Source: Lacinutrix sp. WUR7 (GTDB taxonomy: Bacteria; Bacteroidota; Bacteroidia; Flavobacteriales; Flavobacteriaceae). From it: a stretch of 64,000 nt of DNA. Where the stretch lies: positions 3,916,001 through 3,980,000 of the forward strand of contig NZ_CP045067.1 of NCBI RefSeq assembly GCF_016864015.1, given 5' to 3'. The translations under genes and the position numbers were made by a program. Under the pieces are notes generated by a model that saw nothing but the letters and a program-made list of their open reading frames with translations, did not search any database and had not been told where the DNA came from. Positions 44,121 through 62,581 of the stretch are shown here, in pieces (positions within the stretch are counted from its first letter, which is position 1; each line of letters begins with the position of its first letter).

Positions 44121-44160
44121 ATTAAATTGGTTTTTGTTAGTGAATCATTAGTGATTTATG

Positions 44161-44232
44161 TAAAACTACTGATAATAATTGAACGTTTTAAGTAAAACAC
44201 TAATTAATCGATAAAAATTAAAAAATTATGAT
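44161..44232 (-). promoter_or_regulatory. Shared T9SS-array promoter A: TAGTTTTA box with two CGAT-type sites
   Basis: Reverse-strand TAGTTTTA (44161-44168), 40 nt before the ATG. CGAT at 44209 and TGAT at 44229 lie 41 and 61 nt from the box end. GATAATAATTGAA (44171-44183, + strand) adjoins the box. Confidence 0.6.
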
Positions 44233-44255
44233 TAACTACAAATTAACAAAAAAAC

Positions 44256-44281
44256 AAAAGCCACCTAAAAGGTGGCTTTTT
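44256..44281 (-). terminator. Terminator of T9SS gene B
   Basis: AAAAGCCACC / GGTGGCTTTT stem with a TAAAA loop. Nearly identical copies end T9SS genes C and D. Confidence 0.85.
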
Positions 44282-44302
44282 AATATAAAAATAAGGTTTA
44301 AA

Positions 44303-46207
44303 TTAATTCTTAATAATCCTTACTGTTTCTGTAGCATTACCTATGGTTACTTTAACAAAGTAAGCTCCAGCTTGTAAAGCAGACATATTAACTTCTGTAT
44401 TAACCGCATTAGGAGCAGTACGTAGTACTTCTTGACCTAACATATTATAAACAGTAATGTTATCTATATCTTTTTGCGCTTTTAGTACTAAAACATTAGA
44501 AACTGGATTTGGATAATAAGTAAAAGCTAAATCGTTATCAAAATCTTGTGTAGATAAGGTATTCGTTACTGAAATTGTACCAGCACCTGTTGCTCGTGCA
44601 ACACCATCATCCGTTATTGCAACAAGATACGTTGCACTAGGAACTAATTCAGGATTGTCACTAGAACAACCGCCATCAATAGCCGTTGCACAATCACTAT
44701 ATAAAGCATACATAGTCGCTGGACCTGTAATAACAAGAGTAGAAATACCAGTTGCAGGTGTTGTAAATGTATACCAAATATCATTAACGGTAGCACCAGT
44801 AAAACAAGCTGTGTCCACAACTCCTGAATCTGTAGCTGCCGTATTATCATAAGCTACTGCTGCACCTCCTACAATTACTTCAATAGCACCCGAACATTCA
44901 TCATTTATTAACAGTTCTTTTACTTGAATTTGAAATGCACCTACTGCGTTACCATAACCATCCACTTGAATGTAATAAGTACTACCACCTGTTAATGGGG
45001 ATGCAGCTGTATTTATAACAGACATATAACCAAATCCAGTTTCTCCATCATCGTCACTACATTCTAATTCTGTACCAGTAGAATAATCTGTGCAATCTGT
45101 GAAAGCATATAATGCCAATTGAGAATCTGTCATTTCTGTTTCAAAATCCGTAGTTATTTCAACTAAACCAGATGCAGGAGCTACAAATGAGTACCAAACA
45201 GTATTACCGGTTGTTGTAGATCCCCAACAGGAACCAGCAACTTCGGTCGCGTCAAAAGTAGATAATGCATTCGTACCTGCAAGCGGAGCTGCATCCACAG
45301 TTAACCCTTCAGCATTACAAACATTATCATTTGCTGGTGGTGGTGGTGCAGACTCAGAAGTAAAAGTCCAAGTTGCACAACCGGTACTAGCACCAAAACA
45401 ATTTATTGGAATAACCGACCAAGAATACGTTGTATCATAATCTAAACCTGTAATATTTATATTTGGAGTAGACACATTTGCTATGGTATTTCCCTCAAAT
45501 ACAAAATCATAATTTAGTGCTCCCGGAATAGCATCCCATGAAAAAGCCACTACTCGGCTAAGGCCATCAGTTGATTCTGTGGTTACCACATCTGTTGCAG
45601 TGTCTACAGGCGCTATAGGAATAGTACACGCTGGAACTGCTATTTCTGTACATTGATACACTTCCACATTGTCAAAAGCCCAACCCCATGCATAGTTACC
45701 TACCCATCTAAATCGCACCTTTGCATTGGAAACACCTGCTAATTCCGCAGAAACATCAATATTTTGTAATCCGTAAACGGTACTTGCTCCATAAGAAGCC
45801 ACCTCTACCCAAGCAGAACCATTATATACTTCTACAAAACCAGCACCTCCATAACCAGAAGTAAAAAAGTGGTTGTAATTTAAGGTAACATTAGTTAAAC
45901 CAGAGCAATCAAAAGCTGGACTTTCTAAAGCCGCATTTTCTGCAATGATACCTGCATAAGCAAAACTATCGAAAACACCGTAATTACCACTCATTCCCCC
46001 ATATTCATAATAAATAGTATTGCCATCTGCATAGCCTATAGCTTCTCCTCCTGTAGCAAAAGCCCAAACTTCTCCTCCTCCTTCAATGTCGTTGTTTGTC
46101 CAGCCAGCTGGAAGTGATAATGCCGCATTAAAATCTTCGGTAAAAACCGTTTGCGCATTTAAGTTAAACATGGCAAACAATACCATTAATAAAGTAATTT
46201 TTCTCAT
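44303..46207 (-). CDS. T9SS-exported protein B, 634 aa
   Basis: Signal peptide MRKITLLMVLFAMFNLNAQ. About 20-190 is a choice-of-anchor J / MAM-like jelly roll (FTEDFNAALSLPAGW, GWAFDNVEVYQC). About 195-285 is a fibronectin III-like domain (TTYSWSVIPINCFG). Two PPC-like beta domains follow (NTVWYSFVAPASGLVEITTDFE and NDIWYTFTTPATGISTLVIT). Residues 560-634 are the type A sorting domain. No catalytic motif; adhesive or binding role inferred. Second of four tandem units. Confidence 0.88.
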   Translation of the reverse strand: MRKITLLMVLFAMFNLNAQTVFTEDFNAALSLPAGWTNNDIEGGGEVWAFATGGEAIGYADGNTIYYEYGGMSGNYGVFDSFAYAGIIAENAALESPAFDCSGLTNVTLNYNHFFTSGYGGAGFVEVYNGSAWVEVASYGASTVYGLQNIDVSAELAGVSNAKVRFRWVGNYAWGWAFDNVEVYQCTEIAVPACTIPIAPVDTATDVVTTESTDGLSRVVAFSWDAIPGALNYDFVFEGNTIANVSTPNINITGLDYDTTYSWSVIPINCFGASTGCATWTFTSESAPPPPANDNVCNAEGLTVDAAPLAGTNALSTFDATEVAGSCWGSTTTGNTVWYSFVAPASGLVEITTDFETEMTDSQLALYAFTDCTDYSTGTELECSDDDGETGFGYMSVINTAASPLTGGSTYYIQVDGYGNAVGAFQIQVKELLINDECSGAIEVIVGGAAVAYDNTAATDSGVVDTACFTGATVNDIWYTFTTPATGISTLVITGPATMYALYSDCATAIDGGCSSDNPELVPSATYLVAITDDGVARATGAGTISVTNTLSTQDFDNDLAFTYYPNPVSNVLVLKAQKDIDNITVYNMLGQEVLRTAPNAVNTEVNMSALQAGAYFVKVTIGNATETVRIIKN

Positions 46208-46246
46208 ATTAAATTGTATTTGTTAATTAATTATTAGCGTAAGCCC

Positions 46247-46318
46247 TAAAATTATTGATAATAATTGAATGGCTAGCTCTAAAGATTGACTAATCGATAA
46301 AAGTAAAATTATCACGAT
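46247..46318 (-). promoter_or_regulatory. Shared T9SS-array promoter B
   Basis: Reverse-strand box TAATTTTA (46247-46254), 39 nt before the ATG. CGAT at 46295 and CGAT at 46315, 41 and 61 nt from the box end; GATAATAATTGAA at 46257-46269. Confidence 0.6.
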
Positions 46319-46327
46319 TAATTACAT

Positions 46328-46355
46328 AAAAAAGCCACCTAAAAGGTGGCTTTTT
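46328..46355 (-). terminator. Terminator of T9SS gene C
   Basis: Stem AAAAAGCCACC / GGTGGCTTTTT, loop TAAAA; same core as the terminator of gene B. Confidence 0.85.
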
Positions 46356-46378
46356 ATTACTATATAAAGATCTAAAAA

Positions 46379-49300
46379 TTAGTTCTTAATTACTCTTACT
46401 GTTTCTGTAGTATTACCTATTGTTACTTTAACAAAGTAAGCTCCAGCTTGTAAGGAAGACATATTCACTTCTGTATTCACAGCATTAGGAGCAGTACGAA
46501 GTACTTCTTGACCTAACATGTTATAAACAGCTATGTTATTTATATCTTTTTGAGCTTTTAAAACTAAAGCACTAGATACAGGGTTTGGATAGTAAGTGAA
46601 TGCTAATTCGTTATCAAAGCTTTGCGTAGATAATGTAGAACAAGTTACTGTAGCTTCCCATCCTTCTCTTGTTACACTACTATCAGAAGTAAACACAAAG
46701 GTTAAAGTTCCTGATGCATGTGTAGATGTTATAGACATACCTTGTAAATCTCCTGTTCCTTGGTCTATAATATCATCTCTATCCCAACACCAAATTGTTC
46801 CACCTCCTGGAGGATCAATAGTAGCAGCTGTATCATCTGGTCCATTATAAACTGTTAAGCCGTCCCAACAACCTGTTGTTCCATTATTTTCTGAGCTAAA
46901 AGCAGTAAAAGTAACCGTAACAGCATCACCTACAACGTCTGGTGCAATTACATATGTAACATTTTCACCACTTGGATAATCACTACTGGCTCCTCCTGCA
47001 TCTAAGAAAACACCACTAGTACAACTTGGTATTACAGCAACGTAAGGTGTTGCAAATGTATATGGTCCTGACCAAGCACTAGTGTCTCCACCACCGCAAT
47101 CTGATTGCACATAAAACGCATAAGAATTATCTCCTACTAAACCAGTAGCAGCATAAGGATTTGTAACCCCCGAAGCTGTTGCATTTCCTGTAACAGTTCC
47201 TCCACCAGCAACATCAACTAATTCTATATTCCACATTGTTGCAGTTCCATTTTCTGTCCAACCTAAGTCAGCAGAAGTTTCTGTAATTGCAGTTGCAGAA
47301 CCAGCAGATGGTGCAGGACATACTTCTGTAGTTGAGAATGCATATGGTCCCGACCATGAACTAGTGTCTCCACCACCACAATCTGCTTGTACATAATATT
47401 CGTAATCCGTTTCTGCAGTTAATCCTGTTAATGCTTGTGGGTTTGTCATGGTACCAGTAATCATAGTTCCTGTTCCCATTGTTAATGGAGCAGTTCCCCA
47501 TTCCACATTCCAAGTTGTTGCAGTTCCACCTTCTGTCCAACCTAAATCAGCAGAAGAATCTGTAATTGCAGTTGCAGAACCAGCAGTTGGTTCTGGACAT
47601 GTAGGTGTTGGCTTAATACAAAACTCTAATGCACCTTCATCATTACTACCATAATCCCAATATCTTAAATATACTGTATCTCCAGGAGTTAAGCCTTCAA
47701 ATATTTTTTCGTCTAAAGAGCTATTACAAACGACAGGATCTAAAGCTGTTAAAGCACCACAAGTTCCTGTGTACACTTCTACAATAGAACTATATCCAGG
47801 CCCCACAATACTATCATAAATAAACCCTCCTGAAGCAGGAACAGTTAAAGTAAACCAAATATCACTAGGATTTGGATCTGATGTAGCATTTGTACAAGTA
47901 CTACTAGGAGCTACTTCTCCTGCAGAATTAGTTGCTCCAAGATTACTACCAGTATACGTTAAAGTACATGTTACTTCGTCTGCATTCATTACTGAATCTA
48001 AATCTATAGCGTTTGCACACTCATCATTTGTTGCTGGGCAAGCATCTTGAACTAAACCATTAAATGATGAAGAACACACTGGGTCTTGATCATTAGCAAC
48101 CGTTATAGCTACAACTGTTCCGTTTGTATAAGGTCCAAAAGTTAACATTCCTGCCGCGTTTAAAGTTTGCGAAGCACTTGCTTGGTCATCTGAAGCTGTC
48201 ATTGACGTCGCTGAACCTAAATCTGTAATATCTACTTCAATCTTAAATCCTCCAGAAGCTGCACAATCGTCAACCACTGTTGCTGTTACTGTTGCAGGAG
48301 CACAAGATAGACACTCTACATTAAAATCTATTGAAGTTTGCTCTGCACTACCACAAGAGTTTGATGAATCTCCTGCTATTCTTACAAATAGTGAAGTACC
48401 TGTAGAATTAAATGTTAATCCTGTTAAATCTCCAGCAGTACCATAACCGTTATATAATTCTGGTGCCGTAGCATCTACTCCGTCATATACAATAAATTCA
48501 TCATACGTATTTTCAACTGTTCCAGAATTAACTGTGATTTTTAATCCACTAGTACCATCTGAACTTGCAAACAACCAGTCTAAATTACTATTGTTTTCAT
48601 AACAACCAGTAGCATTTGTTGGTGTCCCACAAATAACTTGTGTTGGACAATCATCATAACTAAAATCTCCAAGAGAGAAATCACAAGCAGCATCTGTATG
48701 CTCCAAAGTTAAAGTTACTGTAACTCCAGTTGCGTAAGGTCCTGCAGTAACAATTCCTGAAACAACAGGAAAAGTTCCACCTAAACCATCGGTAACATTA
48801 GCACCATCTCCTACTGTTGCCACGTCTACATCTACACTAAATTGTGCATTAGAACAATCTGGCATCACCGTAGCACTATTCACTACTGCTGTAGTACACG
48901 TTGGAGCTGCATCATTAACAAACTCATCAATATGCAAATAGAACTTATCAGTATCTGTAGCTCTAATTGCGACATAAACAGTCATACCATCATAGGATGA
49001 TAAATCATATGTATATTGTGCATAATTTGGCACGTTAATAGTTGCCGTTTCACTACCCAAAAGGGTAGTAAAATCAGCTGGAGCAAAACCTGTAGTGGAT
49101 AATCTAACTTCAAATGTTTCTGTCCAATTATTTGAGATTGCGGCCCAAAAAGACACTCTATCCGAAGCACCTGCAGTAACTGTGAATTGTGGTGTAATTA
49201 AATAATCGTCATGAGCATTAGAATCCCAAGAAATACGAGCATGACCATCACCTAAGTAATTTTCAGCGGTCACATGAAGCCAAGTATTTCCAGCGTCTAC

Positions 49301-49414
49301 ATTCGTTACTGTCCAAGTTGCTGGAATTTCAGTATCAAAATTCTCTGTGAATTGCGCATTAGCTTGCCAAGCAAAGGCAAACATTGCGAATAGTAATAAG
49401 GTAATTTTTTTCAT
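46379..49414 (-). CDS. T9SS-exported protein C, 1011 aa, repeated Fn3 and CUB-like modules
   Basis: Signal peptide MKKITLLLFAMFAFAWQANAQ. Choice-of-anchor J-like domain about 22-170, then Cys-containing beta modules (about 173-460) with one CUB-like part. A PPC-like domain covers about 465-605 (DIWFTLTVPASGGFIYD). Two nearly duplicate fibronectin III repeats cover about 610-790 (TAITDSSADLGWTEGG and TAITETSADLGWTENG). A CUB-like domain covers about 800-930 (GCWDGLTVYNGPDD) and the type A sorting domain 937-1011. The Fn3 repeat is visible in DNA at about 47040-47330 versus 47330-47620. Adhesion or glycan binding is inferred. Confidence 0.88.
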   Translation of the reverse strand: MKKITLLLFAMFAFAWQANAQFTENFDTEIPATWTVTNVDAGNTWLHVTAENYLGDGHARISWDSNAHDDYLITPQFTVTAGASDRVSFWAAISNNWTETFEVRLSTTGFAPADFTTLLGSETATINVPNYAQYTYDLSSYDGMTVYVAIRATDTDKFYLHIDEFVNDAAPTCTTAVVNSATVMPDCSNAQFSVDVDVATVGDGANVTDGLGGTFPVVSGIVTAGPYATGVTVTLTLEHTDAACDFSLGDFSYDDCPTQVICGTPTNATGCYENNSNLDWLFASSDGTSGLKITVNSGTVENTYDEFIVYDGVDATAPELYNGYGTAGDLTGLTFNSTGTSLFVRIAGDSSNSCGSAEQTSIDFNVECLSCAPATVTATVVDDCAASGGFKIEVDITDLGSATSMTASDDQASASQTLNAAGMLTFGPYTNGTVVAITVANDQDPVCSSSFNGLVQDACPATNDECANAIDLDSVMNADEVTCTLTYTGSNLGATNSAGEVAPSSTCTNATSDPNPSDIWFTLTVPASGGFIYDSIVGPGYSSIVEVYTGTCGALTALDPVVCNSSLDEKIFEGLTPGDTVYLRYWDYGSNDEGALEFCIKPTPTCPEPTAGSATAITDSSADLGWTEGGTATTWNVEWGTAPLTMGTGTMITGTMTNPQALTGLTAETDYEYYVQADCGGGDTSSWSGPYAFSTTEVCPAPSAGSATAITETSADLGWTENGTATMWNIELVDVAGGGTVTGNATASGVTNPYAATGLVGDNSYAFYVQSDCGGGDTSAWSGPYTFATPYVAVIPSCTSGVFLDAGGASSDYPSGENVTYVIAPDVVGDAVTVTFTAFSSENNGTTGCWDGLTVYNGPDDTAATIDPPGGGTIWCWDRDDIIDQGTGDLQGMSITSTHASGTLTFVFTSDSSVTREGWEATVTCSTLSTQSFDNELAFTYYPNPVSSALVLKAQKDINNIAVYNMLGQEVLRTAPNAVNTEVNMSSLQAGAYFVKVTIGNTTETVRVIKN

Positions 49415-49454
49415 ATTAAATTGGTTTTTGTTGATTAATTATTAGCATAAGCAC

Positions 49455-49526
49455 TAAAACTATTGATAATAATTGAAAACTTTTACCAAAACTCTAACTA
49501 ATCGATAATACTCCAATTTTCACGGT
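49455..49526 (-). promoter_or_regulatory. Shared T9SS-array promoter C
   Basis: Reverse-strand box TAGTTTTA (49455-49462), 40 nt before the ATG. CGAT at 49503 and CGGT at 49523, 41 and 61 nt from the box end; GATAATAATTGAA at 49465-49477. Confidence 0.6.
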
Positions 49527-49553
49527 GAAATACATGCTAGACTGTGCTATATT

Positions 49554-49586
49554 AAAAAAAGGCTTTGTTTTCACAAAGCCTTTTTT
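49554..49586 (-). terminator. Duplicated fabI-type terminator (scar copy)
   Basis: GGCTTTG / CAAAGCC stem with TTTTCA loop between A- and T-tracts; stem and loop are identical to the terminator of intact fabI at 52273-52302. Confidence 0.85.
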
Positions 49587-49611
49587 AATTGTTTTAATAC
49601 TAGTAATTTTT

Positions 49612-49853
49612 CTATTTCTCCTGAGCTTCTACAAAAGCTTCCATAACTTCATTACCAACACCTATATTATTGAATCCTCCATCATGAAATAAGTTTTGTA
49701 GGGTAACCATTTTAGTTAAATCGCTAAACATAGCCACGGTATAATTTGCAAAATCTAAAGCGGTTGCATTACCTAATGGAGACATTTTATCTGCATAAGC
49801 AATAAAACTATCAAATCCTTTTACTCTAGAACCTGCAATTGTTGGTGATTCTA
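49612..49853 (-). pseudogene. Truncated 3' fragment of fabI
   Basis: About 80 codons on the reverse strand, open to a TAG at 49612, read ESPTIAGSRVKGFDSFIAY ... NATALDFANYTVAMFSDL ... EVMEAFVEAQEK. They match the last third of the intact FabI encoded at 52325-53137, with a 6-base deletion near the start and a different last few residues. The N-terminal two thirds, including the NAD site and the Tyr/Lys catalytic pair, are absent. No start codon or promoter is placed to express it. It is followed by a copy of the fabI terminator and lies between T9SS genes C and D. Confidence 0.9.
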
Positions 49854-49907
49854 ATAAAGTATAAAGAAACAGCGAAATTACTTAACATAAATACAATTGT
49901 TACCCAT

Positions 49908-49940
49908 AAAAAAAAGCCGCCTAAAAGGCGACTTTTTTTT
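49908..49940 (-). terminator. Terminator of T9SS gene D
   Basis: AAAAAGCCGCC pairs with GGCGACTTTTT across TAAAA; the one mismatch is a G-U wobble in the reverse-strand RNA. Related to the terminators of genes B and C. Confidence 0.8.
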
Positions 49941-49958
49941 TATTAATACAATAAATTA

Positions 49959-52121
49959 TTAGTTCTTAATAACTCTTACAGTTTCTGTAGCATTACCTAT
50001 TGTTACTTTAACAAAGTAAGCACCAGATTGTAAAGCAGACATGTTAACTTCTGTATTAACAGCATTAGGAGCAGTACGCAGTACTTCTTGACCTAAAATG
50101 TTGTAAACAGATATGCTATCCATATTTTTTTGTGCTTTTAATGTTAAGTAATCATTAGCTGGGTTTGGATAATAGGAAAATCCTGCAAACACATAATCTT
50201 CAACAGATAATGGCCCACAAACTACATTAGCTTCCCAGCCTGTTTCTACGACACTTGTATCTGAACTAAAAACGATAGTTAATGCTCCGCTAGTATGTGT
50301 TGATGTAAAGGAGTCTCCAACATTTAACTCACTAGCTGCTACAAATGGTACGTCTCCGTCTCCACTTTCTTCACCACACAACGTTTGTGCTAAAACTGGA
50401 GCTGTAACATCTGGACCATCATAAATAGTCATAAAATCCCAACAGCCATCTTGAGTACCATTCGTCGTTGCGGAAGCTTCTATATCTACAGACGTAAATG
50501 TTATTGTAACTACATCTCCAACATTATCTGGAAAAATAGTAGTTGTTGACGATTCGCTAACTGCATAACTAGCACTAGCTCCACCCGAATCATAAAAATT
50601 ACCCCCACATGCTGGTGGTAAAAAAGCAGTATTAAAGGTAAATGGTCCTGCCCAATTACTTACATTGGTATCATCCATATCACAATCTGAACGTACATAA
50701 AACGCATAGGCAGTATCTTCTGTTAATCCAGTAAGCATATATGGGTTTGTAGTATCATTTATCATTGGAGTCCCAGTTGGCACAAATCCAGCTGTTCCCC
50801 ATTCAATATCCCAAGCTGTAGCTGAACCATTTTCAGTCCATCCTAAATCAGCAGATACTGTTGTAATAGCATTAGCAGTTAAATTTGTTGGTTCCGTACA
50901 AACAATACAGGCTGTTTCTATAGAAAAATCTACTCCAGGATCTCCATTAATCCAATTTCCTACTCTTATAAAATATTCTGTGCCTGAGGCTGCAATAAAA
51001 TTAACAACAACAGGGTTTTCTTCGGTTCCTGCTGAAGCAAAACAAGCGGTTGTATCCACACCAGCACAAGTACCATCTGTACTTTCAAAAACTTCAACTT
51101 GAGCTTCTTCTACTGTTGCATTTACGGTTAGTTCAATTTCCATATCATTTCCAGTAAACTGATACCATACCTCGTCTCCAATAGTTCCAATACAAGAAGC
51201 TGCAGTTCCTCCAGAAGCATTTACAGTAGTCTGCCCAGTAACGGTTTGATTACAAGCTAAAAGTATGGCGTTAGCACATAAATCATTTGCAGGCGGTGCT
51301 GTAGAGAGCGTAGAAAAATTAAAAGGTCCAACCCAGTTACTCACTCCATTAGTATCACAATCTGACTGAATATAAAAATCATAACTTGTGTTTATTGTTA
51401 ATCCGGATAAATTATATGGATTAGTTGTCGTTCCAGTAATTGTTGTTCCTGCTCCAGGAGTAAAACCAGTAGTTCCCCATTCTATATTCCATGTAGTCGC
51501 TGTACCAGCTTCTGTCCAACTTAAATCTGCAGCAACATCTGAAATGTTCATAGCTGCTAGTGTATTAGGGTCTTCACAAGCAGGTGTTTCTTCAATTAAA
51601 ATATCATCTATATTTAAAGATGCGCCATCACTACCAACATAACTAAAAAGTATTTGTATGTTATTGGCACCTGCGTACGCACTTAAATCTAATGTAATTT
51701 CGTTCCAAGTAAAATTTTCAAACACACCAAAATCTGCTTCTTCCCAAAGTAACGTTGTTGTGGTACCATCTGTTATACTAACTGCGAAATCATAATTATC
51801 AAAAGGATCTACTCCCCAATAATAACTCATGTTAAACCAAAACTTCAATCTTGGTGCTGCAGCCGCTGTAAAATCTAAAACAGGCGTTGTAAGCACTTCG
51901 TCCTGAGGTACTAAAGCAGGATCATAATCTACTTGTGCAGAAGATGCTCCCAAATGCGGATTTGCAGCTTGATACCAAGTAAAACCAGCATTCGTTGTGG
52001 TTAGCGTCCATCCGGTTGGAGGAACAGCCGTTTCAAAATCTTCTGTAAGATATTGTGCTTGTGCATGCCAACTGATAGAAAAAGCAATTAGCAAGAATAA
52101 TAGTAATGTAATTTTTTTCAT
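49959..52121 (-). CDS. T9SS-exported protein D, 720 aa, Fn3 and CUB-like modules
   Basis: Signal peptide MKKITLLLFLLIAFSISWHAQAQ. Choice-of-anchor J-like domain about 22-180 (LTEDFETAVPPTGWTLTT), Fn3 about 185-275, PPC-like about 280-405 (DEVWYQFTGNDMEIELTV), second Fn3 about 408-500. A CUB-like domain covers about 505-640 (DGCWDFMTIYDGPDV) and the type A sorting domain 646-720. Same architecture as the right part of protein C, so C and D are the closest pair. Most upstream of the four units in the direction of transcription, next to intact fabI. Confidence 0.88.
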   Translation of the reverse strand: MKKITLLLFLLIAFSISWHAQAQYLTEDFETAVPPTGWTLTTTNAGFTWYQAANPHLGASSAQVDYDPALVPQDEVLTTPVLDFTAAAAPRLKFWFNMSYYWGVDPFDNYDFAVSITDGTTTTLLWEEADFGVFENFTWNEITLDLSAYAGANNIQILFSYVGSDGASLNIDDILIEETPACEDPNTLAAMNISDVAADLSWTEAGTATTWNIEWGTTGFTPGAGTTITGTTTNPYNLSGLTINTSYDFYIQSDCDTNGVSNWVGPFNFSTLSTAPPANDLCANAILLACNQTVTGQTTVNASGGTAASCIGTIGDEVWYQFTGNDMEIELTVNATVEEAQVEVFESTDGTCAGVDTTACFASAGTEENPVVVNFIAASGTEYFIRVGNWINGDPGVDFSIETACIVCTEPTNLTANAITTVSADLGWTENGSATAWDIEWGTAGFVPTGTPMINDTTNPYMLTGLTEDTAYAFYVRSDCDMDDTNVSNWAGPFTFNTAFLPPACGGNFYDSGGASASYAVSESSTTTIFPDNVGDVVTITFTSVDIEASATTNGTQDGCWDFMTIYDGPDVTAPVLAQTLCGEESGDGDVPFVAASELNVGDSFTSTHTSGALTIVFSSDTSVVETGWEANVVCGPLSVEDYVFAGFSYYPNPANDYLTLKAQKNMDSISVYNILGQEVLRTAPNAVNTEVNMSALQSGAYFVKVTIGNATETVRVIKN

Positions 52122-52160
52122 GATAAATTAGTTTTAGTTGATTAATTCTAAGCGTAATAC

Positions 52161-52232
52161 CTAATTTATTGATAATAATCGAAACCTTTTACTAATACAT
52201 TGATTAATCGATAATAACCATTTTTTAACGAT
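52161..52232 (-). promoter_or_regulatory. Shared T9SS-array promoter D
   Basis: Reverse-strand box TAAATTAG (52161-52168), 39 nt before the ATG. CGAT at 52209 and 52229, 41 and 61 nt from the box end; GATAATAATCGAA at 52171-52183. Confidence 0.55.
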
Positions 52233-52272
52233 AAAGTGTATTCGATTCATGAACTAATCCTATTATTAATGC

Positions 52273-52302
52273 AAAAAGGCTTTGTTTTCACAAAGCCTTT
52301 TT
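52273..52302 (-). terminator. Terminator of fabI
   Basis: GGCTTTG (52278-52284) and CAAAGCC (52291-52297) with TTTTCA loop, between A-tract and T-tract. Confidence 0.85.
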
Positions 52303-52324
52303 CATCTATATTATTGTTCGCGAA

Positions 52325-53137: not shown

Positions 53138-53181
53138 ATGTAATATGTTATTTGGTATTATTAGTTTTATAAATTGTTATT

Positions 53182-53189
53182 CAAAGGTA
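53182..53189 (-). promoter_or_regulatory. -7 box TACCTTTG of fabI
   Basis: Exact TAnnTTTG, 44 nt before the fabI ATG. Confidence 0.5.
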
Positions 53190-53253
53190 GCTAAATTAAT
53201 ATTTATGGGCTACTTATTCAATTGGTATTAGTTATGCATACATAGTATATTAC

Positions 53254-54906: not shown

Positions 54907-54918
54907 GTTTTATTGTAT

Positions 54919-54950
54919 TCAGTAAACAGTAATCAGTATACAGTGTCAGT
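54919..54950. repeat. CAGT micro-repeat
   Basis: Five CAGT words spaced 6-7 nt apart between recN and porD; same motif family as the repeats at 5399 and 28166. Confidence 0.55.
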
Positions 54951-54971
54951 TTTAAATAAATAAAAATCTAT

Positions 54972-55859: not shown

Positions 55860-57063
55860 GTATTTGTTTTATAATTTGGTTAAAAATATCTATTGCTACT
55901 TCAGCTTTCGATTTAAGAGCGTATTCCGTAATATTCTCCTTTACATCAATAAGCGTTACTTTATTGGTTTCCTTTTTAAAACCAGCTCCTTTATCGTTTA
56001 ACGAATTTAAGACAATTAAGTTTAAATTCTTCTTTTTTAGTTTTCCTTTTGCATTTTCAAGCTCATTATTAGTCTCTAATGCAAAGCCTACCAGAAATTG
56101 TTTTTCTTTTATTTGCCCTAAAGATGCTAATATGTCTTTTGTTTTTTCTAGCTCTAAGGTTAACGTAGTATCCTTCTTTTTTATTTTCTGCGTTGCAACA
56201 TTTTTAGGTTTATAATCTGCAACTGCAGCAGAAAGTATGGCAATATCCATATTTTTAAAATATTGATGTGCTGCGTCATACATATCTTGAGCGCTAATTA
56301 CAGGAACGACTTGTATGGAACTGTGTGCTACTTTTTGATGTGTTGGTCCCGTGATTAAGATAACCTCAGCACCTAAATTAGCAGCTGCTTTTGCCAGCTC
56401 AAACCCCATTTTACCAGAGGAGTGATTACCAATAAATCGAACCGGATCTATTGCTTCGTATGTTGGCCCTGCTGTTAACATCACTTTTTTATTCCGTAGC
56501 GGAAGAGTATTTAAAATATCATTTTCTAAAAAAGAAACAATCTCTTCTGGTTCTGCCATTCTACCTTCACCAATTAAACCACTAGCAAGTTCCCCACTTG
56601 TTGCAGGAATAATTATGTTATTATAAGATTCTAGTTTTTTAAAGGATGCTAATGAAGATGGATGCTTATACATATCTAAATCCATTGCAGGAGCAAAATA
56701 AACAGGACATTTAGCCGAAAGATAAGTCGCTAAAAGTAAATTATCGCAAACACCATTTGCCATTTTAGACATGGTATTTGCTGTAGCTGGCGCTACAATA
56801 AAGTAATCTGCCCAAAGCCCAAGTTCTACGTGGTTGTTCCAAACACCATTATCTTCTTCTTCATTTGTAAAAGAATAATGTACTGGATTTTTAGAAAGTG
56901 TTGCTAAGGTTAAAGGCGTTACAAAGTCTTTACTAGCTGGAGTCATTACAACTTTTACGTCTGCTCCAGCTTTAATAAATAACCTTACTAGTGATGCTGT
57001 TTTGTAAGCAGCAATACCAGCAGTTACGCCTAATAGTATGTTTTTGCCACTTAGTATAGACAT
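55852..57063 (-). CDS. coaBC: Bifunctional phosphopantothenoylcysteine decarboxylase/synthetase
   Basis: A 403-aa fusion for two steps of coenzyme A synthesis. N-terminal flavin-dependent CoaC (about 1-180): GVTAGIAAYKTASLVR, NHVELGLWADYFIVAPATANTMSKMANGVCDNLL, PAMDLDMYKHPS. C-terminal CoaB (about 190-400): VMLTAGPTYEAIDPVRFIGNHSSGKMGFELAKAA, ILSAAVADYKPK and a Lys-rich KKKDTTLTLELEKTKDILASLG. 12 nt after the omega gene. Confidence 0.96.
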   Translation of the reverse strand: MSILSGKNILLGVTAGIAAYKTASLVRLFIKAGADVKVVMTPASKDFVTPLTLATLSKNPVHYSFTNEEEDNGVWNNHVELGLWADYFIVAPATANTMSKMANGVCDNLLLATYLSAKCPVYFAPAMDLDMYKHPSSLASFKKLESYNNIIIPATSGELASGLIGEGRMAEPEEIVSFLENDILNTLPLRNKKVMLTAGPTYEAIDPVRFIGNHSSGKMGFELAKAAANLGAEVILITGPTHQKVAHSSIQVVPVISAQDMYDAAHQYFKNMDIAILSAAVADYKPKNVATQKIKKKDTTLTLELEKTKDILASLGQIKEKQFLVGFALETNNELENAKGKLKKKNLNLIVLNSLNDKGAGFKKETNKVTLIDVKENITEYALKSKAEVAIDIFNQIIKQIHA

Positions 57064-57074
57064 CTTTGTTTTTT

Positions 57075-57401
57075 TTACTGGTTGTCTTCTTCTGTATTTC
57101 TATAGTAAATTTTATTATCTAACCATTCTTTAACTGCTAAAGCGTGTGGTTTAGGTAATCTTTCATAGAATTTAGACACTTCAATTTGCTCTTTGTTTTC
57201 AAAGATCTCTTCTAAACTATCGTTGTAAGTTGCAAACTCTTCTAATTTTTCAATTAGCTCTTTTTTAATTTCAGAATTTATTTGTTCTGCTCTTTTAGAG
57301 ATAATTGAAATAGACTCATAGATGTTCCCTGTAGCAGCATCAACTTCATTTCTATTGTACGTTGTTGTACTTGTAGGTGCATCAATCTTCTTTAAATCCA
57401 T
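57075..57401 (-). CDS. rpoZ: RNA polymerase omega subunit (Bacteroidota type)
   Basis: A 108-aa protein of the Bacteroidota RpoZ family. NIYESISIISKRAEQINSEIKKELIEKLEEFA is the omega core helix pair. It assists RNA-polymerase assembly by wrapping beta-prime. The length and the location between bamD and coaBC agree with the usual gene order. Confidence 0.9.
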   Translation of the reverse strand: MDLKKIDAPTSTTTYNRNEVDAATGNIYESISIISKRAEQINSEIKKELIEKLEEFATYNDSLEEIFENKEQIEVSKFYERLPKPHALAVKEWLDNKIYYRNTEEDNQ

Positions 57402-57407
57402 AGTATA

Positions 57408-58220
57408 TTAACTTTTAGTACTGTATTTTTTTAATTCTTCTTCTAAATTTTCTAACATATCCTTTGTCTCATCCATATGCTCTGAATTTGCATATTTATT
57501 TACAAATGAAAGGTAATATGTTTTTGCTTTTATTAGTCTATCTTCTTTTTTTCTTTCTACACTATTAATAGCTAATTGGTAAGCAGAATCTAATCTATAA
57601 AACAACGCTGTTTCACGAAGTTTAGATCCTGGAAACTCAAATATAAAATTATCGAAAGCTTTTATCGCTGCATTATAATCTCTTGTATATCCTACCGTTT
57701 TGTAATATTGATATGCAATATCGAAAGATTTCTGCTCTAGTTTACCATCTAACTCATGTACCAATTTATTTGCTTCTTCAAGAAATTCTGACTCTGGATA
57801 AGCGTTTATAAATAATTGAAACTTTTCAATCGCATCTTTAGTTGCATGTTGCTCTTTAGTGTATGCTGGAGATAGCATATAGCTACTTTTAGCGGAAAGA
57901 AATTCTGCCTCTTCTGCTTTTTCACTTTTAGGATATGCTGCAGCAAAACGGTCAAATTGATAGCCTGCTAAGTAATATTCTTTTGATTTGTAGTAAGAAT
58001 CTGCATGTAAAAAGGATAACTTTTCGGCTTGAGGCTTCCCTCTGTATTGCGGCATAATCTGCTCAAACAACCTACTAGCCTTCATGTATTTCCCTTTATT
58101 ATACATTTCTTCACCTACTTTAAATTTTGCAGCAATATCGTCACCATTTACAGCTTTTTGATATGGACTACAAGAACTTAATACTAAGCCTACTAATACT
58201 ATGTAAATTAATCTATTCAT
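57408..58220 (-). CDS. bamD: Outer-membrane assembly lipoprotein BamD
   Basis: A 270-aa TPR lipoprotein of the BAM complex that inserts beta-barrel proteins. Lipobox LVLSSCSPY. TPR repeats: FKVGEEMYNKGKYMKASRLFEQIMPQY, ADSYYKSKEYYLAGYQFDRFAAAYP, AIEKFQLFINAYPESEFLEEA, YNAAIKAFDNFIFEFPGS. First gene of the reverse-strand cluster; TAATTTTG at 58330-58337 suggests a 5' leader of about 100 nt. Confidence 0.93.
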   Translation of the reverse strand: MNRLIYIVLVGLVLSSCSPYQKAVNGDDIAAKFKVGEEMYNKGKYMKASRLFEQIMPQYRGKPQAEKLSFLHADSYYKSKEYYLAGYQFDRFAAAYPKSEKAEEAEFLSAKSSYMLSPAYTKEQHATKDAIEKFQLFINAYPESEFLEEANKLVHELDGKLEQKSFDIAYQYYKTVGYTRDYNAAIKAFDNFIFEFPGSKLRETALFYRLDSAYQLAINSVERKKEDRLIKAKTYYLSFVNKYANSEHMDETKDMLENLEEELKKYSTKS

Positions 58221-58329
58221 TTGTTAATTTTACTGTTTTTTAACTATCTAATGCAATTCTATAATAGAATCAAGTGTACTAATGTTTCCTGTATTAGCTA
58301 TACTTATTTCTTAATTTTAAAACAGAATG

Positions 58330-58337
58330 CAAAATTA
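58330..58337 (-). promoter_or_regulatory. -7 box TAATTTTG upstream of bamD
   Basis: Exact TAnnTTTG, 109 nt before the bamD ATG; no nearer match exists in the 206-nt gap. Confidence 0.45.
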
Positions 58338-58426
58338 GTCTTTTAATATGGATTTTAAAAATATTTTATTCTGCTAAAATAATTGATGAATTCAAGTAAT
58401 TTAAAGGTTTAAGTAATATTTAACTT

Positions 58427-59308
58427 TTAAGCAAATACTTTAAGCGCTTCTACTATTTTTTGTTTTAGCGTATTTGTAGCTTCCACTAGTGGTAATCTCA
58501 CATTAGCATTACACATATTTAATGCTTGAAAAACAGCTTTAATTCCTGCCGGATTGTTTTCAGCAAAAATTAGACCAGTCATCTCCATAAGCTTAAAATG
58601 TAGCGCATAAGCTTCTTTAGCTTTACCTTCTAGCCCTAAATTAATCATTGTTGTAAAGTCTTTAGGAAGTGCTTGTCCAAGTACAGAGATCACTCCTGCT
58701 CCACCTGCTAACACTACTCCTAATGCTAAATCATCATCACCAGAAATTACTAAAAAGTCTTCCGGTTTATTTTTAAGTAGCTGTAAATATTGGTGCACAT
58801 TATTTCCGGCCTCTTTAACGGCTATAATATTTTCAAAGTCATTTGCCAAACGTAAAGTCGTTTCTGGCGTCATATCTTTAGCCGTTCTACCTGGAACATT
58901 ATATAAAATTACTGGAACAGGAGACACTTCGGCTATCGCTTTAAAATGTTGATATAATCCTTCTTGCGTTGGCTTGCTATAATATGGAGATACCGATAAA
59001 ATAGCATCGATATTAGAGAAGTCTGTGTTTTTAATTTCTTCCACTACTTGCGCAGTGTTATTGCCACCAATTCCTAAAACCAATGGTAATCTTTGCTTAT
59101 TAGCCTTAATTATCGTTTTAGTAATTGCTGCTTTTTCTGCTGCTGTAATGGTTACACTTTCTCCTGTTGTACCACTTATTACTAGATAATCTGTTCCGTT
59201 TTCTATATTATATGCTACAATATCTTCTAAAGATTTGTGGTCTACACTTAAATCTTCATTAAAAGGTGTAATTAATGCAACTCCTGTACCTACAAATTTA
59301 TTATTCAT
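58427..59308 (-). CDS. dapA: 4-hydroxy-tetrahydrodipicolinate synthase
   Basis: A 293-aa aldolase of lysine/diaminopimelate synthesis, condensing aspartate semialdehyde with pyruvate. GTTGESVTITAAEK, VSPYYSKPTQEGLYQHFKAIAE, ILYNVPGRTAKDM (catalytic Tyr) and NIIAVKEAGNN (Schiff-base Lys) are complete. It overlaps the upstream DUF6913 gene by 8 nt, so the two are translationally coupled. Confidence 0.97.
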   Translation of the reverse strand: MNNKFVGTGVALITPFNEDLSVDHKSLEDIVAYNIENGTDYLVISGTTGESVTITAAEKAAITKTIIKANKQRLPLVLGIGGNNTAQVVEEIKNTDFSNIDAILSVSPYYSKPTQEGLYQHFKAIAEVSPVPVILYNVPGRTAKDMTPETTLRLANDFENIIAVKEAGNNVHQYLQLLKNKPEDFLVISGDDDLALGVVLAGGAGVISVLGQALPKDFTTMINLGLEGKAKEAYALHFKLMEMTGLIFAENNPAGIKAVFQALNMCNANVRLPLVEATNTLKQKIVEALKVFA

Positions 59309-59828
59309 TACTTATTTTATTAAATGTATTAAGGTATTTTATTAACTCGTTTTTAAATAAATCAAACTGTTTTAAATTGGTTTTAATAATAAAATCATTC
59401 AGTCTGTTATCCGACTGTAACACGCCTATTTTAAATTTAGATTTAGATGCTGCTGTTAAAACTTTAAGCGCTAATACATCTTGTTCATAATAGCTAATTA
59501 AAGCATCAAATGGTGTATCTAAAAATTCTTGGAGTTCTTTGTTTTTTATTTTTCCGTTCCAACTAAAATCTTTTGGATTAAAACAAACATCCCAAGCGCT
59601 TATGTCTTCTTTTTTATTAGAAGTAAACGCTATAATTTTAAGCTTATTTTGTTTGACATGCATTACTTCTGCAAGCTTCCTAAAAGACTCAAAATCATCC
59701 GTTTCATCTATGTTTATTATCACACCTAGACTAGCTATTTTATCTTCGTCTAAAAAAACATGTCTAGAATTTAATAATTTACTAAGATGTTTTTTAGTAG
59801 AATTTTGTTTAAAACCCTTTAAAATCAT
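59301..59828 (-). CDS. DUF6913-like conserved protein, 175 aa
   Basis: No clear function. The sequence has KHLSKLLNSRHVFLDEDKIASLGVIINIDETDDFESFRKLAEVM and FDALISYYEQDVLALKVLTAASKSKFKIGVLQ, a small alpha/beta protein of a flavobacterial family (DUF6913 by recall). It lies immediately upstream of dapA and overlaps it. A TACCTTTG box is at 59848-59855. Confidence 0.7.
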   Translation of the reverse strand: MILKGFKQNSTKKHLSKLLNSRHVFLDEDKIASLGVIINIDETDDFESFRKLAEVMHVKQNKLKIIAFTSNKKEDISAWDVCFNPKDFSWNGKIKNKELQEFLDTPFDALISYYEQDVLALKVLTAASKSKFKIGVLQSDNRLNDFIIKTNLKQFDLFKNELIKYLNTFNKISNE

Positions 59829-59847
59829 TTATATTTATACTTTCTTA

Positions 59848-59855
59848 CAAAGGTA
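59848..59855 (-). promoter_or_regulatory. -7 box TACCTTTG of the DUF6913-dapA operon
   Basis: Exact TAnnTTTG on the reverse strand, 19 nt before the ATG; the divergent box on the other strand starts 12 nt away. Confidence 0.55.
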
Positions 59856-59866
59856 ACAAAAGTAGT

Positions 59867-59874
59867 TAGTTTTG
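59867..59874 (+). promoter_or_regulatory. -7 box TAGTTTTG of the 5'-nucleotidase C-domain gene
   Basis: Exact TAnnTTTG, 25 nt before the ATG at 59900, in a compact divergent promoter region. Confidence 0.55.
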
Positions 59875-59899
59875 TTTATTAAATCCTAGTCCTTTACAC

Positions 59900-60661
59900 A
59901 TGAAATTTAAACATCTTTTTTTAATTGTTTTTGCGCTCTTCATTTATAGTTGCAAACAAGAAAATCTATCCCTTATTAAAATTGAAGGAAAACAAATAAA
60001 TATTAATGATAGCCTAGAAATTAATCAAGAAATTGAGGACTTTGTAAAACCATATAGAGATCATGTTAATAAGAATTTAGATAGTATCATTTCTTATGCT
60101 GTAGACACGTACTCTAAAAGTGATGGAGAATTTAATACCGCAATTGGAAATCTATTTGCAGATGCCGTTCTTGAAGAATCTAGTCCGATTTTAAAAAAAC
60201 GAACTGGGCATAACGTAGACATGGTTTTACTAAATCACGGAGGTATTCGCGCTATTATATCTAAAGGAGACATAACCACCAGAACAGCTTATGAGATTAT
60301 GCCTTTTGAAAACAGCTTAGTAGTTGCAGAAATGAAAGGAAAAACAATACAAGACAGTTTAATAAATTATTTAAGCAAAGCAAAACGCGCACATCCTATT
60401 GCTGGTTTAAAATTGACGCTTGATAAAGATTTTAACGCTATTAAAGCTAGTATTAACAACCAGCCAATTGAAGCAGATAAAACCTATTACGTTGCAACGA
60501 ATGACTATTTGTACCATGGAGGCGATAGAATGACCTTTTTTCAAACAAATGATAGCTTGCATGTTTTAAATTATAAAGTAAGAAATGCACTATTAGACTA
60601 TTTTCTTAAAAAAGACACCATTAACCCTGTTATGGATGACAGATTTATTCAATTAAAATAA
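59900..60661 (+). CDS. 5'-nucleotidase C-terminal-domain lipoprotein
   Basis: A 253-aa protein with lipobox FIYSCKQE and the substrate-binding domain of UshA-type 5'-nucleotidases. GNLFADAVLEESSPILKKRTGHNVDMVLLNHGGIRA, TTRTAYEIMPFENSLVV and VATNDYLYHGGDRMTFF are present. The metal-binding catalytic domain is not here; it is encoded in the next gene, 5 nt after this one. Confidence 0.92.
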   Translation: MKFKHLFLIVFALFIYSCKQENLSLIKIEGKQININDSLEINQEIEDFVKPYRDHVNKNLDSIISYAVDTYSKSDGEFNTAIGNLFADAVLEESSPILKKRTGHNVDMVLLNHGGIRAIISKGDITTRTAYEIMPFENSLVVAEMKGKTIQDSLINYLSKAKRAHPIAGLKLTLDKDFNAIKASINNQPIEADKTYYVATNDYLYHGGDRMTFFQTNDSLHVLNYKVRNALLDYFLKKDTINPVMDDRFIQLK

Positions 60662-60666
60662 ACCAG

Positions 60667-61584
60667 ATGAAAAGAAGAGATTTTATACAACAAACATCTG
60701 CTACAGCTGCATTAATTACATTAGGAGGTTTAGGACTACAATCGTTTACCTCTGGAAGCAAAACAACCAAAATCACGATACTTCATACCAATGACGTACA
60801 TAGTCATATTGATGCTTTTGGACCTGAAGACGGTAGAAATCCGAACCAAGGTGGAGTTGCAAGAAGAGCTAGTTTAATTCAAAATCTTAGAAACGAAAAT
60901 CCAAATACGTTACTATTAGACGCTGGAGATATTTTTCAAGGAACACCATATTTTAACTATTATGGTGGCGAGTTAGAGTTTAAACTAATGAGCATGCTTA
61001 AATACGATGCAGCAACCATTGGTAATCACGATTTTGATAATGGAGTAAATGGTTTATTAGCACAATTGCCGCATGCTAAATTTGATTTTCTGTCGGCTAA
61101 TTATGACTTTTCTAATACCGTTCTGGACGCTTATATAAAACCGTATAAAGTATTTAAAAAAGGTGGAATTAAAATTGGTGTTTTTGGCTTAGGTGTTGAA
61201 CTAAATGGTTTAGTAGATAAGAATCTATATAAAGAAACCAAATATCTCGATCCAACTGAAATCGCTCAAGATATGAGTCGCATTTTAAAAGAAAATGAAA
61301 AATGTGATTTAGTAATTTGCTTATCGCATTTAGGATATCATTACAAAAATTTTACAGAAAAAATTAGTGATTTAAACCTTGCAAAGGCTACAAAAGATAT
61401 CGATTTAATTATTGGCGGACATACACATACTTTTTTACCGAAGCCTACCATTGCAAAAAATAGCATAGGGAAAAATGTTTTAGTAAATCAAGTTGGTTGT
61501 TACGGAATTAACCTAGGAAAAATAGACTTCTATTTTGATGCAGATAAAAACAAAGCCGCAAAAGGAACTTCTATTTTAGTGTAA
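60667..61584 (+). CDS. 5'-nucleotidase N-terminal metallophosphatase, Tat-type signal
   Basis: A 305-aa calcineurin-like phosphoesterase. The twin-arginine start MKRRDFIQQTSATAALITLGGLGL implies Tat export. Metal-site motifs ILHTNDVHSH, DAGDIFQG, TIGNHDFDNG, LSHLGYHY and IIGGHTHT are complete. With the preceding gene it reconstitutes a full UshA-type enzyme in reversed gene order. It overlaps the convergent membrane protein gene by 9 bp. Confidence 0.93.
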   Translation: MKRRDFIQQTSATAALITLGGLGLQSFTSGSKTTKITILHTNDVHSHIDAFGPEDGRNPNQGGVARRASLIQNLRNENPNTLLLDAGDIFQGTPYFNYYGGELEFKLMSMLKYDAATIGNHDFDNGVNGLLAQLPHAKFDFLSANYDFSNTVLDAYIKPYKVFKKGGIKIGVFGLGVELNGLVDKNLYKETKYLDPTEIAQDMSRILKENEKCDLVICLSHLGYHYKNFTEKISDLNLAKATKDIDLIIGGHTHTFLPKPTIAKNSIGKNVLVNQVGCYGINLGKIDFYFDADKNKAAKGTSILV

Positions 61585-62343
61585 ATTTTTTAACTTTTTT
61601 GGAAGAAAAAAGGCAGCTTTTACATTAAGCTCCTTTTTCGCTTTATTCCGCTCCAATACATAACTAAACAGGAAGAATAAACCTAATAAGTGTAAAACTC
61701 TATCCAACATTACAAAGCTCGAATTATACAAATAATACGTACTTATGTAATTTAACACATCAGAAAACACAAAACATAAAACCATAATTAAAAACTGAAT
61801 AGACACTTTGGTTTCTGAATTTAAGTAATCTACAAACGAAACAAAAGCAAGCGCTATTAAAGTGGCACTTTTAATTCCAAATAACGAAACCTCTATACTG
61901 TCTGGAATATAATACTTGATAACATCAAAAAGTGTATACAATAGATAAGCATTAATTAAAAACACGAAAACTAAATACGAGCTAATTACTTTATCTAGTT
62001 CTAGTTTTTTAATCCTAGTTGCCACTGCAATAATCAAAAAAGAATAACTTAAGCAGTATGCTAAACTAGAAATATTTACAAGCATCAAGTTATAGGTGAA
62101 AACAGAAGTGAAATCTCCAATAAAGGAAAACAACAAAAAAGCAAGAATGCTTATTTTAATTTGCTTATTTCTTAATAAAAAATAAATTAAGAATACTGGA
62201 ACAAAAAGAGGCTTTGTTAATTGCTGAAACAAATCATTTGCACTAATAGTCGCTATTACATTAATTAGCATAAGCACAAACAATATGCTCAAAAACATCT
62301 TGTTAGGAAATTTTTTTATCCAATTTTTAACAATCATAATCAT
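61576..62343 (-). CDS. YhhN-like (lysoplasmalogenase family) membrane protein 1
   Basis: A 255-aa protein with about eight TM helices. KPLFVPVFLIYFLLRNKQ near residue 45, LFSFIGDFTSVF near 80 and AYCLSYSFL follow the pattern of the YhhN/TMEM86 family. The assignment is tentative because sequence conservation is low. SFVDYLNSETKVS ... FSDVLNYI parallels SFLNFLENDTRKS ... FSDFLLIG in the next gene, so the two are paralogs. Its promoter (62357) carries CGAT sites like those of the T9SS array. Confidence 0.65.
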   Translation of the reverse strand: MIMIVKNWIKKFPNKMFLSILFVLMLINVIATISANDLFQQLTKPLFVPVFLIYFLLRNKQIKISILAFLLFSFIGDFTSVFTYNLMLVNISSLAYCLSYSFLIIAVATRIKKLELDKVISSYLVFVFLINAYLLYTLFDVIKYYIPDSIEVSLFGIKSATLIALAFVSFVDYLNSETKVSIQFLIMVLCFVFSDVLNYISTYYLYNSSFVMLDRVLHLLGLFFLFSYVLERNKAKKELNVKAAFFLPKKLKNLH

Positions 62344-62356
62344 AAGTAGGTTAGTG

Positions 62357-62411
62357 CAAACATAAAATAAATATTACACACAACGATGAAATATTACACT
62401 TAATCGATGAA
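62357..62411 (-). promoter_or_regulatory. Promoter TATGTTTG with adjacent 20/21-bp direct repeats
   Basis: -7 box TATGTTTG (62357-62364, reverse strand). Two copies, ATATTACACACAACGATGAA (62371-62390) and ATATTACACTTAATCGATGA (62391-62410), lie side by side. The distal CGAT (62405) is 41 nt from the box end, as in the T9SS-array promoters. Confidence 0.6.
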
Positions 62412-62581
62412 ATACATGCTTTTTATACGATTTTCTGTATAATTCTCTCATTATGAAGCAAACAACAAAACCTTCGTATACCCACTAAATTTCAAACTAT
62501 TTAAAGATTATCACATTCCTATTAGGGAATTGTTGTTGTTATCCTTTTACACCAACTTTAGGGTTTCAATTTATGGGATAA

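Follow-up and report, generated by a model that had tools for sequence, protein, structure and literature searches.

A candidate LytTR-type regulon with a direct-repeat operator in Lacinutrix sp. WUR7 and other Flavobacteriaceae

In a stretch of 64,000 nucleotides from Lacinutrix sp. WUR7 (contig NZ_CP045067.1, positions 3,916,001 to 3,980,000 of the forward strand; hereafter the window), five promoters on the minus strand carry a direct repeat upstream of a -7 box. Four of them, A to D, precede an array of type IX secretion system (T9SS) cargo genes, and the fifth, Y, precedes a gene for a hydrophobic protein. We propose, at a probability of roughly 80%, that these promoters belong to a LytTR-type regulon, in which the repeat would be the operator, a dimer of an orphan response regulator would read it and activation would proceed from phased positions. 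The computed evidence consists of the repeat and its spacing, the conservation of both across genera, the phasing of the repeat wherever a box is recognisable, the co-occurrence of sites with one regulator, and the presence of the repeat in that regulator's own promoter.

Mechanistically, the operator would consist of copies of GYATTTYRTCGA in direct repetition every 20-21 bp (two helical turns), bound head to tail by a dimer of the orphan LytTR regulator. The bound regulator would then activate the primary RNA polymerase, acting upstream of the -7 box from positions that are fixed and in helical phase, with offsets of about 12, 22, 43 and 54 nt between the TCG of the repeat and the box. The T9SS cargo cluster would use the 43-nt position together with a TAnnTTTA box, Y would use the 22-nt position, and the candidate regulator may also bind its own promoter. 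We infer binding by the candidate regulator, control by phosphorylation, activation, a signal and a physiological role.

The repeat in the window

The original prediction held that in A, B, C, D and Y a CGAT starts 41 nt from the end of the -7 box, that a second such word starts 20 nt further out in the T9SS promoters (TGAT in A, CGAT in B, CGGT in C and CGAT in D), and that Y has another CGAT 21 nt nearer the box; re-measurement reproduced all of these positions. Each CGAT word forms the core of a half-site, GYATTTYRTCGA, which is repeated directly at a period of 20-21 bp. In A, the distal half-site (GTAGTTAATCATAAT, degenerate) lies at 44225-44239, the proximal half-site (AATTTTTATCGATTA) at 44205-44219 and the box (TAGTTTTA) at 44161-44168, 43 nt after the proximal TCG. 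The corresponding elements are at 46311-46325, 46291-46305 and 46247-46254 (TAATTTTA) in B, at 49519-49533, 49499-49513 and 49455-49462 (again TAGTTTTA) in C, and at 52225-52239, 52205-52219 and 52161-52168 in D, where the box, TAAATTAG, is a poor match. In Y, the distal half-site (GTATTTCATCGATTA, near the family consensus) occupies 62401-62415, the proximal half-site (ATATTTCATCGTTGT) 62380-62394, 21 bp away, and the box (TATGTTTG) 62357-62364, 22 nt after the proximal TCG. The 41-nt distance is thus common to all five promoters and the register is not: the CGAT at 41 nt belongs to the proximal half-site in A to D and to the distal half-site in Y, which places the Y pair one repeat closer to the box.

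Applied to both strands of the window, the exact rule ATCG-N40-TAnnTTT[AG] matches A, B, C and Y and nothing else, four matches against a mean of 0.54 and a maximum of 3 in 100 dinucleotide shuffles. D escapes the rule because of its box; its spacing is the same as in A, B and C. The bare pair ATCG-N17-TCG occurs four times in the window, two of them at B and D, against 1.59 expected, which is not significant, and a loose word search of the genome with three mismatches gave 913 matches against 1460 in its control. Simple words were accordingly rejected as a whole-genome test, since without an excess over the control a full profile was required.

To score pairs with the period free between 19 and 22, a matrix of the half-site was derived from 40 of 45 loci (L034-L078); D (as L040) and T9SS promoters of relatives were in the training set and Y was outside it. 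In the window this matrix ranks the Y pair first (30.1), followed by D (23.6) and C (21.7), with weak scores for A (15.7) and B (13.8); the maximum was 19.8 in 60 dinucleotide-shuffled windows and 16.8 for the reversed matrix. The fifth promoter, which the original prediction had singled out as decisive, thus carries the top-scoring repeat of the window without having contributed to the training.

Two profiles extended the search. R1, built from sequence alone on 18 T9SS promoters, recovered all four sites of the cluster along with weaker places in the rest of the host genome, and at E<=0.01 it matched 247 of the 397 genomes of the family; outside the cluster, its places show a clearer repeat with the same half-site and period. 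R2 was built from 23 sites, none from a T9SS array and 6 of them from the host genome. Its E-values in the window are 1.4e-7 for D, which lay outside its training, 3.8e-4 for C, 0.002 for B and 0.010-0.015 for Y. Because R2 copes badly with a 21-bp spacing, Y was judged by the free-period matrix. A further R2 match at 26887-26910 (E 8e-4; L103, at around rank 30 in the genome) lies inside a gene and was regarded as chance.

Sites in the host genome and across the family

The host genome is a single contig of 3.99 Mb, 99.93% complete. Of its 30 best R2 sites, 28 lie outside reading frames of at least 120 codons, or 22 of 24 once the 6 training sites are held out; two of the 28 (L090 and L105) overlap the last bases of the preceding gene. 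Top matches of column-permuted matrices in the window were intergenic in 85 of 600 cases (14%). Extra genomic hits, which had likewise been called decisive, are therefore present.

Across the family, R2 sites at E<=0.001 occur in 281 of 397 genomes and 183 of 237 genera, a count that includes genomes from which part of the training sites came, with up to 14 sites per genome among the best 16 candidates scored. We fetched 80 further sites, which together with 30 loci make 110, all picked by R2 score and 6 of them training places. Their period is 20 in 99 cases, 21 in 10 and 22 in 1, the share of period 20 being biased because the selecting profile was built mostly on sites of that period. LytTR sites mostly consist of two repeats of 9-11 nt, 11-13 nt apart (PMC4847170), and a 9-nt core in the present repeat leaves a spacer of 11-12 nt, within this range.

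Distance and helical phase to the -7 box

Since R2 ends before the box, the distance between repeat and box provides an independent reading. When the 104 fetched sites not used to train R2 were examined over the 8-59 nt that follow the proximal TCG, a TAnnTTT[AG] box turned up in 49. Two distances account for 41 of them, with a box start at 12-14 nt (21 sites) or 21-24 nt (20 sites); the counts are inflated, since orthologous genes contribute many of the phased boxes, which are thus not independent. Over the wider range of 8-69 nt there are 64 box starts, of which 3 fall at 15-20 and 5 at 25-41. In two reversed-box controls there were 0 and 1 starts at 12-14 and 2 and 2 at 21-24, with 9 at 15-20 and 15 at 25-41.

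The host genome, where the genes are mostly unrelated, gives box offsets of 12-13, 22-23, 34, 43 and 54-55 nt, with exceptions at 17 and 18. Here the best period is 10.4 bp (p 0.0002 when the period is fixed at 10.5 bp, 0.003 when it may vary), for a list without boxes nearer than 8 or beyond 60 nt and without two lower-scoring sites (L046 and L101:2857); when these two are added, p is 3e-5. Where a consensus box exists, the repeat thus keeps a fixed helical face relative to it, as an activator promoter should. The -7 box of Flavobacterium psychrophilum, TAnnTTTG, lies at -12 to -5 (PMC9723704). By this measure the repeat would occupy about -52 to -21, a place one helical turn upstream of that or, for the T9SS class, about -83 to -52. 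Such positions are as expected of an activator that would be obliged to face RNA polymerase.

An orphan LytTR response regulator as candidate reader

The candidate regulator is a protein of 231 aa encoded on the minus strand of the host genome (G000:C1:2802241-2802936). It has the domain make-up of a response regulator, with a receiver (PF00072, 1.2e-19) and a LytTR domain (PF04397, 5.6e-19), and its best NCBIfam match is BtsR, at 121 bits and under the cut-off of 246. Its neighbours, named by eye from translations, are priA and rpsF-rpsR-rplI; no kinase gene adjoins it as in LytS-type systems, the search having covered the neighbouring genes only and not kinases elsewhere. The protein is identical over all 231 residues to a record from an Oceanihabitans metagenome-assembled genome, and its 29 best orthologues in other genera are 92-97% identical; Olleya and Flavobacterium are among the genera with an orthologue.

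The repeat stands before this gene as well. At 30 of 30 loci it lies at -78 to -82 relative to the start of the regulator gene (scores 14.3-27.1), and among 36 records of at least 91% identity, some from genomes also in the first set, it lies at -78 to -81 in all except L309 (scores 11.3-28.4); in a shuffled control 99% of scores were below 8.3 and the largest of 800 was 14.1. Among 44 loci of distant orthologues (62-72% identity, 3.7 kb each), R2 gave 13 matches at E<=1 from 8 loci, and 12 of the 13 fall within about 130 nt upstream of the regulator gene.

Co-occurrence points to the same protein. With presence defined as E<=1e-65 in the 397 genomes, a cut chosen after the E-values were known, sites occur in 272 of the 292 genomes with an orthologue and in 9 of the 105 without (Fisher p 2e-60, uncorrected for phylogeny), and the mean number of sites per genome is 5.0 with the orthologue and 0.26 without. 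Weaker LytTR matches are present in 56 of the 105 orthologue-less genomes, of which 7 have sites; LytTR proteins in general therefore do not explain the sites. As the distribution of sites follows one conserved LytTR regulator, that regulator is the likely reader. The earlier suggestion of a LytTR-type dimer thus gains support from the repeat geometry, a half-site resembling that of Escherichia coli YpdB, the orthologue co-occurrence and the repeat in the regulator's promoter, which together make such a reader plausible. Selecting the regulator by likeness to YpdB was tried and rejected, as this does not tell the paralogues apart: the candidate is 28% identical to YpdB (E 6.7e-25), and most other host LytTR proteins are 24-30% identical. 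The response regulator within the window (36560-37270) is OmpR-like (PF00486) and not LytTR.

Evidence against the proposal and alternative readings

Several observations weigh against a LytTR regulon read by this protein, in addition to the limits already attached to the box counts and the co-occurrence statistic. In the window, R2 matches site A only in its proximal half, with an E-value of 0.77 that is weak alone, and in the whole-genome search the E-value of Y is only 0.38. No consensus box lies within 8-59 nt in 55 of the 104 fetched sites. Only 14 of the 44 distant orthologues score at least 14 in the 300 nt upstream (9 forward and 5 reverse), and in 20 genomes with the orthologue no site reaches E<=0.001. 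Conversely, nine genomes have sites and no orthologue, including G117 (7 sites, 87% complete), G274 (5 sites, 99%) and G222 (5 sites, 96%). The host genome has 15 LytTR matches, and six of these paralogues score better than the candidate against YpdB, so the candidate is not its orthologue by this measure.

Some of these points would follow if the repeat were real and had another reader, for instance another of the LytTR paralogues or a protein of the AraC type, with the distribution of the orthologue merely tracking the species tree. The number of host paralogues, the sites in the nine orthologue-less genomes and the lack of a phylogenetic correction all fit this alternative. We nevertheless consider it unlikely, given how few genomes with only weaker LytTR matches have sites, given that the repeat precedes the orthologue's own gene at every one of the 30 loci, and given that among the 15 host LytTR loci the candidate's is the only one with a pair scoring above 14 before the start.

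A second alternative keeps the regulator and reverses its effect, so that it would repress rather than activate at many sites. Before a SixA-like gene of the host genome, the site (G000:C1:3432667-3432709, L270) stops 5 nt short of the start codon, and 8 of the 110 fetched sites have their proximal TCG 10-12 nt ahead of the start codon of a SixA-like gene. A repeat abutting the start in this way suggests repression, or action in the other direction. As a general account, however, repression seems improbable to us: the repeat lies wholly upstream of the consensus box, mostly at the two phased distances, which fits contact with RNA polymerase, and the T9SS boxes deviate from TAnnTTTG.

Shared ancestry had to be weighed for the T9SS promoters. 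A to D are similar over about 110 nt, extending into the signal peptide; their promoters, leaders, signal peptides and sorting domains are alike and the middles of the genes differ, and a strict core with up to three mismatches matches the A to D promoters alone in the host genome (reversed control 0). Since this likeness could by itself be ancestry, promoters of same-class genes were gathered from relatives. The genes were located by protein homology, start with M[KR][KRN] and end in a sorting domain of the G[AS]Y[FIV][VA] type; two MLKK/MIKK genes of L022 and genes of L026 were left out, giving 29 promoters. A search with three freely spaced blocks (distal half, proximal half and box) recovered a layout of 20 and 46 in 20 of the 29. 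When the matrices trained on these promoters were run with rigid spacing over 477,886 positions, 24 matches exceeded 20 bits, and 23 of the 24 preceded genes belonging to the set.

A cleaner test left out genera. Its blocks came from 19 promoters of the host genus alone and were used on 10 promoters from six other genera, where the distal offset could range from 15 to 26 and the box offset from 25 to 65. The distal offset came out at 20 or 21 in 10 of 10 promoters and the box offset at 45-47 in 9 of 10, whereas only 3 of 300 shuffled sequences gave both. Likeness through ancestry alone was rejected on this basis. The original prediction had cautioned that ancestry might account for four of the promoters, a concern contradicted by this test and by the rank of Y. 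That A to D are alike merely through duplication or recombination of whole 5' ends, with Y a coincidence, is in our estimation very improbable, because the spacing is retained in the six other genera though the spacer sequence differs, and because the repeat also precedes Y and other unrelated genes.

It is hardly credible that the elements belong to an alternative or extracytoplasmic function (ECF) sigma factor, of the kind suggested for T9SS genes elsewhere in the Bacteroidetes: promoters assigned to ECF factors in F. psychrophilum, with a CGT box within the -10 region, do precede several T9SS component genes (PMC9723704), whereas the boxes here follow the primary-sigma type TAnnTTT[AG], those of A to D (TAGTTTTA, TAATTTTA, TAGTTTTA and TAAATTAG) lack such a CGT box, and the repeat stands at several distances from the box, unlike a sigma element.

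Relation to known systems

In the E. coli YpdB site, the spacer is 11 nt. YpdB (PyrR), the regulator of yhjX, binds a direct repeat of GGCATTTCAT (PMC4847170). The flavobacterial operator is likewise a direct repeat, its half-site GYATTTYRTCGA includes GCATTTCAT as one form, and both proteins have a LytTR domain. Unlike the flavobacterial regulator, ypdB adjoins its kinase gene, and YpdB has a single target, compared with many sites per flavobacterial genome; the identity of only 28% is a further difference. AgrA, ComE, VirR and BtsR share the repeat length and spacing (PMC4847170) and the combination of receiver and LytTR domains, but the flavobacterial half-site differs from theirs, the regulon spans the family and the repeat occupies several phased positions.

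In Porphyromonas gingivalis, PorX/PorY and an ECF sigma factor similarly link two-component proteins with T9SS genes. PorX does not bind T9SS promoters, according to PMC5005315; here, in contrast, the genes are mainly cargo genes, the protein is of the LytTR type and the boxes are of the primary-sigma type. The motifs SM1-SM6 of F. psychrophilum include the TAnnTTTG -7 box, and sigma-54, SM5 and ECF-type motifs have been linked to gliding or T9SS genes in that species (PMC9723704), but these are sigma-factor motifs. The main text of that paper contains no word starting with LytTR, TCGA or sixA. We found no description of the operator or of its regulator in the literature searched, which excluded most subscription journals. 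LytTR regulators with direct-repeat operators are already known, and the flavobacterial operator and regulator are new to the literature searched.

The Flavobacteriaceae are a large group that comprises polysaccharide degraders, gliders and fish pathogens, and their two-component regulation is poorly mapped; one conserved regulator, an operator, a partial regulon and a promoter geometry have been obtained here together. If the proposal is true, the way in which T9SS cargo, adhesins and polyphosphate are controlled would become accessible across hundreds of genomes, and the promoters would form a natural series for the study of LytTR-dimer activation from different helical turns.

Genes beside the repeat and a possible wider role

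The genes beside the host sites include those of the T9SS array and genes for a leucine-rich repeat (LRR) protein, an OmpA-like protein, T9SS proteins, choice-of-anchor-L proteins, a PAS histidine kinase, a CheY-like receiver, a CAP lipoprotein (on the other side of its own site), MscL (named by eye) and a 42-aa membrane peptide. The SixA-like phosphatase gene, also among them, is followed by a polyphosphate kinase gene and then a Ppx-like gene (Ppx by eye). The regulon originally suggested is thus supported and is not specific to T9SS, as the range of genes is wider. A site also stands before gldK (TIGR03525, E 1.2e-179), in the genome of a single relative (G218). gldK is the first gene of the T9SS core operon.

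We put forward, tentatively and at a little less than even odds, a broader reading in which the nearly invariant orphan LytTR regulator would be a cell-surface master switch across Flavobacteriaceae, acting from several phased operator positions. Its targets would include T9SS cargo arrays, gldK in at least one genome, LRR and OmpA-like surface proteins, the widespread small membrane peptide and the sixA-ppk1-ppx polyphosphate operon. If true, such a switch would supply DNA-binding transcriptional control of T9SS-dependent functions, which PorX does not provide.

Among the 110 fetched sites, recurrent neighbours are a zinc-ribbon-looking protein of 80-88 aa (10 sites, including L137, L143, L164 and L175; the single copy tested matches no Pfam family), SixA-like (8), LRR (7) and CAP lipoprotein genes (4). 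A small single-membrane-span peptide of 42-59 aa, MKKNLLGAIVIFFVT..., whose host copy lies at G000:C1:1589690-1589818 (L269:3191-3319), follows the repeat in 14 of the 110, with a TAnnTTTG box at 12-13 nt in 9 of 12 fresh sites; the two copies tested match no Pfam family. No reading frame of at least 60 codons follows the site in 46 of the 110, of which 14 are this small peptide, and some sites without a downstream frame probably act in the other direction.

The cargo array and gene Y

Gene Y (61576-62343, minus strand) encodes a hydrophobic protein of 255 aa. It had been called YhhN-like, a name that Pfam and NCBIfam do not support, neither library giving a match at E<=0.001. The array at 42804-52121 is made up of mosaic T9SS cargo genes, also on the minus strand and all with a type A sorting domain: A (42804-44120) has a P-domain, B (44303-46207) the sorting domain, C (46379-49414) a cleaved adhesin domain and fn3, and D (49959-52121) fn3. 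Their 5' ends and sorting domains are alike and their middles unlike, with a common signal peptide MKKITLL and sorting domains of 68-84% identity among the pairwise matches listed first. Tandem clusters of T9SS cargo genes also occur in other genomes of the host genus and in other genera. Between C and D, the stretch 49600-49900 resembles a decayed coding remnant, as judged by eye, and a hairpin, GCCACCTTTTAGGTGGC, is common to the likely terminators before A (44260-44280) and B (about 46330-46352).

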